From: Chloroflexales bacterium ZM16-3
GTDB taxonomy: Bacteria > Chloroflexota > Chloroflexia > Chloroflexales > Chloroflexaceae
Length of the DNA: 64,000 bases
Direction: 5' to 3'
NCBI GenBank assembly: GCA_004138175.2
Contig: RYFE02000024.1
Span: 1 to 64,000 of the forward strand
The position numbers were made by a program, and so were the translations under genes. Shown here one piece after another: positions 50,803 through 53,800 of this stretch (position 1 is its first letter; every line of letters begins with the position of its first letter). Under the pieces are notes generated by a model. It searched no databases. It was given only the letters and a program-made list of their open reading frames with translations, and had not been told where the DNA came from.

Positions 50803-53800
50803 ATGTTCAAGCCCGTCGAGACGAGCGTGTCGTTCCCCCAGCTTGAGGAGCAGGTCCTCGCGTGGTGGGGCGCTAACCAGATCGTCGAGAAGTCGCTGGC
50901 CTCGGGGAGCAAGCCCTTCGTGTTCTACGAGGGGCCGCCCACGGCCAATGGTCGGCCCGGCCTGCATCACGTGATCAGCAGGACGTTTAAGGATATCATC
51001 TGCCGCTACCGGGCCATGCAGGGCTATAAGATCATCGGTCGCCGCGAGGGCTGGGACACCCACGGCCTCCCGGTCGAGATCGAGGTCGAGAAGAAGCTCG
51101 GCTTCAGCGGCAAGCCCGACATCGAGAAGTACGGCATCGCCGAGTTTAACGCCCGCTGCCGTGAGAGCGTCTGGGAGTATATCCAGGAGTGGCAGACCTT
51201 CACCAAGCGCATCGCCTACTGGGTTAGCGAGGATGGCTACTACACCTACGACAATAAGTATATCGAGTCGCTCTGGTGGATCTTTGGCCAGCTCTGGGGG
51301 CGCGACCTGCTCTTCCGCGACTATAAGGTCACGATGCACTGCCCGCGCTGCGGCACCAGCCTGAGCGACCACGAGGTGAGCCAGGGCGCCCGCGATGATG
51401 TGGACGACCCGAGCGTCTATATCAAGTTCCGCGTCAGCGGCGAACTAGCACCTGGGGCTGGCAATCATGGGCTGCCACAGCGCGCCGCTTCCCTCCAGGG
51501 TGCCTACATGGTGGCATGGACGACCACGCCCTGGACGCTACCGGCGAATGTGGCACTGGCCGTTAAGCACGAGGCCACCTACGCCGAGGTGGAGTTCAAC
51601 GGCGAGCGGCTGGTGCTGGCCGAGGCCCTGCTGCCCCAGGCGCTCGGCGAGGGCTACACGGTGCTGCGCACCTTCAAGGGCAACGACCTGGTCGGCCTGC
51701 GCTACGAGAAGCTGTTTAGCGGCGTGCCCGGCCCTGGCGACGAGGTTGACCTGGAGACGGCATACCGAGTGGTTGCCGACGAGATCGTGACCATGGACGA
51801 TGGCACGGGCATCGTTCACATCGCCCCGGCTTACGGCGACCTGGACGTGGGCCGCAAGCACGGGCTGCCGACGCTCTTCTCGGTGGACCTGAGCGGCATG
51901 GTGATGCCCGAGTTCGGCGAGCTTGGCTTCGCTGGCAAGTTCTTCAAGCAAGCCGACCCGGACATCACCCGCAACCTGAAGGATCGCGGGCTGCTGCTCA
52001 AAAGCGGGCGGGTGCGCCACTACTACCCGTTCTGCTGGCGCTGTAGCACGCCGCTGCTCTTCTACGCCAAGCGATCCTGGTACATCAAGACGACGGCATT
52101 CAAGGCCGACCTGGTGGCCAACAACCAGCAGATCCACTGGGTGCCTGAGCATATCCGCGACGGGCGCTTCGGCAACTGGCTGGCCAACAATATCGACTGG
52201 GCGATCAGCCGCGAGCGCTACTGGGGCACGCCGCTGCCGATCTGGATGAACCCCGATGGCAGCCACGCCGAGTGCATCGGCTCGCTGGCCGAGCTGGAGC
52301 AGAAGGTGGGCCGCTCGTTGCAGGATCTTGACCTGCACCGTCCCTATGTGGACGAGCTGACCTGGGAGGATCCGCAGCACGGCACCATGCGCCGCATCCC
52401 CGATGTGGCCGACTGCTGGTACGACAGCGGCTCGATGCCGGTGGCCCAGTGGCACTATCCCTTCGAGAACAAGGAGCTGTTTGAGTCGGCCCACCCCGCC
52501 GACTATATCTGCGAGGCGGTGGACCAGACGCGCGGCTGGTTCTACACCCTGCACGCCGTGAGCACGCTGCTCTTCGACCGGCCGGCCTTCAACAATGTGA
52601 TCTGCCTGGGGCACATCCTGGACGAGCACGGCCAGAAGATGAGCAAGAGCAAGGGCAATATCATCACTCCCGCCGAGGTGATCGACCAGTACGGCGTGGA
52701 CGCCTTGCGCTGGTACCTGTTCACGGCGGCGCCGCCCGGCAACCCCCGGCGCTTCAGCGGCGCGCTGGTGAACGAGAGCCTGCGCAAGTTCATGCTCACG
52801 CTCTGGAACACCTACTCGTTCTTCGTCACCTACGCCAGCCTGGACGGGTGGGAGCCAGGGGACAGGGGACAGGGGATAGGGGACAGTGACCTGACGCCCA
52901 TCGACAGGTGGGCGCTGGCAAGGCTAAACGGGCTCGTGCGCGATGTGACGGCCAGCCTGGAAGCGTACGAGGTCTTCCCGGCGGCGCGGGCGATCGAGGG
53001 CTTTGTGGACGAGCTCTCGAACTGGTACGTGCGGCGCAACCGGCGGCGCTTCTGGAAGAGCGAGGGCGACGCCGATAAGCGGGCGGCCTACAGCACGCTC
53101 TACACCTGCCTGCTGACGGTGTCTAAGCTGGCCGCGCCCTTCGCGCCCTATCTGGCCGAGGAGCTGTACCGCAACCTGATGGGATTGCAGAATGAGGATG
53201 GATCGGCGCAATCTGCAATCAACAATCTGCAATCTGCAATCCCAGAGAGCGTCCACCTGGCCGCATGGCCGCTGGTGGACGAGGCGCTGCTGGATGACCG
53301 GCTGGTGGCGGACACCGAGGCGCTTCTGGCGGCGGTATCGCTGGGGCGGGCGGCACGCAAGGCGGCGGGGCTGAAGGTGCGCCAGCCGCTGAGCGAGATC
53401 TGGGTGCGGGCCAGCACCCCCGCCGACGCCGAGGGTCTGCGCCGCTTCGAGGCCGACCTGCGCGATGAGCTAAATGTCAAGGCGGTGCGCTACCTGGAGG
53501 CAGGCTCGGACATTGTCGAGTACCGCTTCAAGCCCAACCTGCGCCTGGTGGGCAAGAAGTACGGCAAGCAGGTGCCGGCTCTGGGTGCCGCCCTGAAGGC
53601 TCTGGCGGGCGCTGAGGCCCGCGCCGTGGCCCACGCGGTGGAGGAGGGCCGCCCGGTGTCTCTGGCGGTGGGCGACCAGACCCTAGAGCTGCTGGCCGAG
53701 GAGCTGCTGGTGGAGAGCAGCGCGCCCGAGGGCTACGCCGTGGCCGACGGCGATGGCGTGCTGGTGGCCCTCAACACCGCCGTGTCCGAGGAGCTGCGCC

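Follow-up and report, generated by a model that had tools for sequence, protein, structure and literature searches.

Tandem heptanucleotide repeats of the STRR and LSSR type are known from cyanobacteria and xanthomonads, and a 1997 title by Vioque reportedly places STRR in RNase P RNA. For Xanthomonas, passages of PMC4692102 describe heptamers arranged as inverted pairs, with intragenic repeats at 11% and 7% in two species. An excerpt on the Nostoc tRNA-Leu intron (PMC3488679) reports degenerate heptanucleotide repeats that pair into a hairpin in P6b, and two repeat classes at one place. Rickettsia palindromic elements (RPEs), according to passages of PMC2229807, lie in frame in conserved protein genes, occur also in structured RNA genes and are tolerated there. 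The TAACTGA repeats of Beggiatoaceae are, according to parts of PMC4679880, dispersed heptamer direct repeats, some of them inside reading frames, and REPINs are dispersed inverted pairs forming hairpins (excerpt of PMC3116915). Among the best matches in open-licence PMC papers, none dealt with heptamer repeats in Chloroflexota and, going by titles and term counts, none with repeats in T-box stems.

The window, a 64,000-nucleotide stretch of Chloroflexales bacterium ZM16-3 (genome G000) that was analysed as a whole, encodes an isoleucine--tRNA ligase of 1089 aa in a single ORF, ileS (50803..54072, + strand). The product matches the NCBIfam ileS profile (TIGR00392) with 900.5 bits, above the equivalog cut-off of 621.4, and its fold matches are topped by solved IleRS structures. 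Among the IleRS matches listed for G000 (4 of 6), the window copy alone is full-length and the remaining 3 are pieces of a ValRS gene on contig C40; ileS is apparently single-copy in G000 and presumably essential. The first-pass annotation had proposed two in-frame heptamer arrays in this gene, and TRF and the ORF bear it out. Site 1, a GGGGACA array at 52856-52886 (+; TRF unit CAGGGGA, 4.4 copies, 91% matches), encodes residues 685-695, and site 2, a CAATCTG array at 53208-53241 (+; unit GCAATCT, 4.9 copies, 85% matches), encodes residues 802-813, close to the ~684-694 and ~793-815 originally given. Both arrays belong to families that also lie between genes; calling them identical to the intergenic families was slightly too strong, as each site has one deviant unit, GGGGATA at site 1 and CAATCAA at site 2.

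These families are spread over the genome. In its 6.27 Mb, GGGGACAGGGGACA has 129 matches and CAATCTGCAATCTG 362, overlaps counted, and the reversed-pattern control for the GGGGACAGGGGACA count was uninformative because reversing the pattern merely shifts the phase of that repeat. A 460-kb sample, consisting of the window and 20 further stretches, contains 125 period-7 arrays against 1 in a block-shuffled control, together with 2 arrays of period 6, 8 of period 8, 37 of period 12 and 24 of period 15. Since many of the stretches were chosen near GGGGACA matches, the family shares in this sample are biased, with ACAGGGG (21), AATCTGC (20), AACATTC (16) and AACCCCC (15) at the top. Among 140 period-7/14 arrays, 58 are intergenic, 29 lie at an edge, 19 near gene ends and 34 in gene interiors; genes were called by a heuristic, and a number of the N-terminal in-gene arrays probably reflect wrong starts. 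With called coding sequence at ~91% of the sample, an interior share of 34/140 indicates that genes are depleted in arrays, not closed to them. An inverted partner lies within 110 bp of 30 of the 58 intergenic arrays (2 of 290 random places) and of 13 of the 34 gene-interior ones (5 of 170 random places). Copy number also differs in close relatives, the array at window position 18585 measuring 55 bp in G000 and 69 bp in the sister species G004.

In-frame heptamer arrays are not special to ileS. They were found in Mfd (residues 675-715, ahead of TRCF at 731), in valyl-tRNA synthetase (named from an IleRS-search match plus motifs), in a pyruvate-dehydrogenase-type E2, in a xanthine-dehydrogenase-type protein (residues 299-313, between domains that end at 282 and start at 328, and residues 401-423, the next domain running from 424), in MazG, and further in an HsdS-like subunit, a class-III aminotransferase fusion and transporters. 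Within the window, TRF places an in-frame array at 11511..11544 (-) in a MazG-family gene (10718-11983, -), where G004 has a different family at the same place, and three in-frame GGGGTTG/CCCAACC arrays at 62816..62946 (-) in a C39-like peptidase gene (62241-63380, -), with the same family in G004. Several arrays thus separate annotated domains, but at least two fall within domain matches, at residues 70-81 of the L146 protein, in APH (29-272), and in an MFS protein of locus L158, inside the MFS match.

Three side observations may be added. Apparent parts of mfd stand at contig ends, at window 1-1110 (-) by reading and at L156 3-2603 on contig C94 by NCBIfam, so that a contig break may lie inside a repeat-rich mfd. 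At L179, the pyruvate-dehydrogenase-type E2 of G004 is missing, in frame, both its linker and the beginning of the domain that follows, by deletion or assembly collapse, which leaves the E2 linker array without an equivalent in G004. At about 11051-11205 and 11239-11361 of L158 there are dispersed elements of ~120-150 bp with dozens of G004 matches on both strands; these are MITE-like palindromes, not heptamers.

To place the ileS arrays among relatives, IleRS was searched in 41 genomes, all comparisons resting on draft assemblies without reads. The resulting alignment has 46 rows, 37 from these genomes and 9 from 80 genome_contigs loci; the broken genes of G014 and G021, the two genomes in which no full IleRS was found (G001 and G036) and the remaining genome_contigs loci were left out. 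The G000 and G004 enzymes are 91% identical, and the tree groups (G000,G004) and (G003,G005) with G002 outside (support 100/99). The first-pass annotation had named the same residues encoded by unrelated, non-repetitive DNA in orthologues as its refutation; such encoding occurs in 0 of the 46 rows, so the claim was not refuted. Both arrays persist, as had been claimed, being common to G000 and G004, and are thus older than a speciation. In all five genus members where ileS was found, the frame is intact at both sites. The split IleRS matches of G014 and G021 ended near sites 1 and 2; repeat slippage was considered as the cause of these frame breaks and rejected, the breaks being single-base indels outside any array.

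The two sites differ in history. GDRGQG appears at site 1 in 2 of the 46 rows (G000 and G004). The loop itself is present in all 46, is nearly constant in length within the genus (78-90 bp) and exists in T. thermophilus IleRS as well, shortened there by 3 residues, which indicates that it was overwritten rather than added; of the "surface-loop additions" first suggested, the loops hold for both sites and the addition for site 2. An AlphaFold2 model built on a 40-sequence alignment (mean pLDDT 88.6) places site 1 in a coil between helices 653-680 and 699-720, with pLDDT 67 and 72 for the residue blocks of 681-700, and site 2 after helix 782-792, with 73 and 50 for the blocks of 791-810, the latter being the lowest of the whole model. 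Both arrays are thus predicted to form low-confidence loops of IleRS. At site 1, four GGGG runs with 3-nt spacers (52858-52882; 7-bp spacing) make up a candidate G-quadruplex-type motif, and RNA folding of the site gave no hairpin (z 0.18). Other G-rich repeat-like stretches, with 8-bp spacing by reading, occupy the site-1 loop in G015 and G016.

Site 2 is a genus-specific insertion. Of the five genus members with ileS, G000, G003, G004 and G005 have repeat-derived residues here and G002 has none; by reading of the 46-row alignment, such residues are confined to rows of the same genus, the loop being short in most aligned rows. The distance from YRNL to SVHL is 51 bp in G002, 72 bp in G003, 93 bp in G000, 114 bp in G004 and 180 bp in G005, that is, three successive steps of 21 bp (7 x 3, the least common multiple of unit and codon) followed by one of 66 bp. 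G005 stands outside the 21-bp series; at 66 bp above G004, it contains GGGATTGCAGATT twice, 87 bp apart. The right array is identical in G000 and G004 down to the odd CAATCAA unit, which indicates inheritance. The two ends of the whole insert (53181..53243, +), GGGATTGCAG at 53181-53190 and CTGCAATCCC at 53234-53243, form a perfect 10-bp terminal inverted repeat, and the RNA fold of the insert beats shuffles (z -3.09). In G004 the orthologous insert folds into a long hairpin of heptamers (-52.3 kcal/mol, z -8.41), relative to which the left arm is mostly lost in G000.

Overlooked by the first-pass annotation, two further arrays lie upstream of ileS, in its probable T-box leader (RF00230; 50332..50707, +; 73.3 bits, E 4.9e-16, full model 1-219). 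The score is below the gathering score of 93, leaving the leader unreported at the curated threshold. Leaders without arrays reach 95.6 bits in G002 and 99 in G006 but 69.5 in G009, 67.1 in G017 and 82.1 in G024, so that the low score is not necessarily due to the arrays alone. One heptamer hairpin (TGAATGT / CAATTCA; 50448..50514, +; TRF; fold z -3.32) occupies the apical loop of stem II, where it is an insertion in the covariance-model alignment, and G004 has the same family. The other (GATTGCA / CAATCTA; 50591..50660, +; TRF and alignment; fold z -5.59) lies at stem III, where the family in G004 differs. Counting a stem as periodic when it lay beyond all 1000 shuffles, which preserved base composition alone, we found a period-7 stem III in 6 of 19 segmented family-f1 leaders (G000, G004, G005, G010, G015 and G021) and in 0 of 14 from the other three families; for stem II the counts were 2 of 17 (G000 and G004) and 0 of 14. 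Leaders of G008 and G023 were badly segmented, those of G003 and G033 unsegmentable, and G007, G011, G020 and G022 had no core found or too little upstream DNA. On the IleRS tree, the six genomes with a period-7 stem III are scattered over at least three separate positions. In G003 (L005, the few hundred bases before 1501), stems I to III have apparently been lost; the start and the antiterminator core remain, and the Rfam T-box match is absent.

Stem III is one of several places at which sister species carry different families. A comparison with G004 along the window, extended by 195 kb of contig C1, yielded 46 loci with an orthologous G004 place (rows sharing a place merged) and 34 rows without. 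The unit is shared at 18 loci and differs by one base at 1; G004 has no array at 17 and different units at 10. Four of the ten were discounted: 11420 is the same place as 11511, 314126 has no heptamer array, and 263522 and 342695 are weak. The six kept loci (window 11511, 11927 and 40692; C1 202834, 264530 and 313023), together with T-box stem III and the ValRS loop, give eight slots, four of them intergenic, three in protein loops (ValRS, xanthine dehydrogenase and MazG) and one at T-box stem III. In the ValRS loop, which is shorter in the other 15 of 17 rows, G000 has a GGAGTCG-type array and G004 has GGGGACA; xanthine dehydrogenase site A shows the same two families, each spanning 76 bp between matched flanks, and the MazG slot encodes 12 residues versus LNTQHSPLNTLH in the G000/G004 comparison. 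At C1:202834 the units AAGGCTG and AATGCTG are one base apart, so drift plus homogenisation is possible there, whereas AATCTGC (G000) against ACAGGGG (G004) at C1:264530 does not permit stepwise drift. The latter pair also refutes the idea that switching occurs only inside one base-composition class. At C1:366047 three units per hairpin arm differ by the same base in G000 and G004, which points to homogenisation across the arms.

Two other repeat types were seen at such places. At G004:C1 238442-238527, 239513-239597 and 244515-244598, intergenic slots that hold heptamer arrays in G000 are occupied by a palindrome family, GGGCGCAGCAG ... CTGCTGCGCCC or similar. Octamer arrays of the CTCAGTGG and TGAGTCAC types stand alongside heptamers at window 40692-40880, where G004 has heptamers instead, and at C1:344956-345128 (L193), where G004 has octamers too.

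Taken together, we think it probable that the ileS segments are copies of dispersed heptamer repeats that originated without regard to frame and were filtered by selection. The period of 7, not 3, indicates an origin at the DNA level. Arrays would arise or land widely through a process ignoring the reading frame, and those surviving in genes would mostly be the ones in loops or linkers, on a stop-free strand and with a net length that is a multiple of three; in ileS, such a frame filter acting on 7-bp units would leave the 21-bp steps. Site 2 probably entered, as an inverted pair forming a hairpin, in the ancestor shared by G000, G003, G004 and G005, and at site 1 an existing inter-helix loop may have been overwritten in the ancestor of G000 and G004. 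Growth would proceed by slippage, and arrival and family switching, we infer, by ectopic template switching between arrays. Most likely the array peptides are tolerated passengers, presumably neutral. No clean empty-site pair with a duplicated target was found among the sites compared. More tentatively, fixed permissive slots might be refilled with whatever family is active, and their families exchanged, by trans-acting copying between arrays, without a transposase. This exchange, possible but less probable than the frame-blind origin, would take in protein loops, T-box stems and intergenic hairpin sites, and would operate in frame in conserved proteins as well as in a riboswitch.

A function of the hairpins or of the G-run motif is conceivable. 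That the site-2 hairpin, the site-1 G-run and the T-box hairpins have been kept for regulation would agree with four GGGG runs at exact 7-bp spacing, with the strong fold of G004 site 2 and with a period-7 stem III in nearly a third of the measured family-f1 leaders. We nevertheless consider it unlikely, as the inserts are absent from most measured relatives, the stem III sequences differ between sister species, and site 2 of G000 is without most of the left arm seen in G004. A little less probable still is the insertion into ileS of a whole, transposase-driven element resembling a REPIN/RAYT or a Rickettsia palindromic element. Inverted pairs, dispersed copies and 5 matches to PF01797 (Y1 transposase) in G000 would suit such an element, and in-frame palindromic elements are described for Rickettsia in passages of PMC2229807. 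However, among the 25 genomes searched for PF01797, G004 (assembly 98% complete) has 0 matches, yet its CAATCTG arrays (488+488 matches) outnumber those of the other 40 genomes compared, while G012 has 11 matches and no CAATCTG array; a Y1 transposase thus seems unneeded, and a Y1-family enzyme as common vehicle was set aside on these two genomes, if not in the strictest sense. Nor was a common body seen, the 7-bp unit alone recurring in many families and copy numbers. Misassembly, or chance low complexity in GC-rich loops, might be suspected from the draft assemblies and the frame breaks of G014 and G021, but is very improbable given that arrays of 31-34 bp recur in the independent G004 assembly, that period-7 arrays so exceed the shuffled control (125 vs 1) and that the breaks are single-base indels away from any array. 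Equally far-fetched is a contingency locus in which slippage toggles ileS on and off: since 7 cannot be divided by 3, gaining or losing one unit would shift the frame, but all five genus members are in frame at both sites and the gene is apparently single-copy and presumably essential.

If the segments are indeed frame-filtered copies of dispersed heptamers, repeats whose 7-bp unit does not fit the reading frame can seed loops of proteins and stems of riboswitches genome-wide, and an essential gene shows growth quantised in 21-bp steps. A slot then stays while its sequence can differ completely in sister species, and the spread and replacement of families become testable through filled, empty and switched orthologous sites. 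A warning also follows, in that loop peptides such as GDRGQGTGDR and LQIADCRLQ originate at the DNA level.

Among described systems, the repeats are like STRR/LSSR heptanucleotides in having 7-bp units and several families that are mostly intergenic, and the period-7 excess, the dispersed families and the copy-number variation among close relatives that mark those repeats were all found here. Unlike them, the present repeats have a Chloroflexales host, form arrays in a T-box leader, lie in frame in aminoacyl-tRNA synthetases and other conserved genes, and place different families in one protein loop in sister species. RPEs, as far as the excerpt goes, are elements of 105-146 bp, whereas in the loci compared the 7-bp unit alone recurs, with families varying per slot and no recurring element of ~100-150 bp. 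The Beggiatoaceae repeats are one family lying mostly just upstream of putative start codons, in contrast to the many families here. REPINs, in the excerpt cited, are not tandem heptamers, and PF01797 was not found in G004, the genome richest in CAATCTG arrays. The system resembles the cyanobacterial heptanucleotide repeats and the Rickettsia palindromic elements combined; it stands apart through its combination of heptamers in frame in conserved enzymes and in a T-box leader, with different families at the same slots in sister species.
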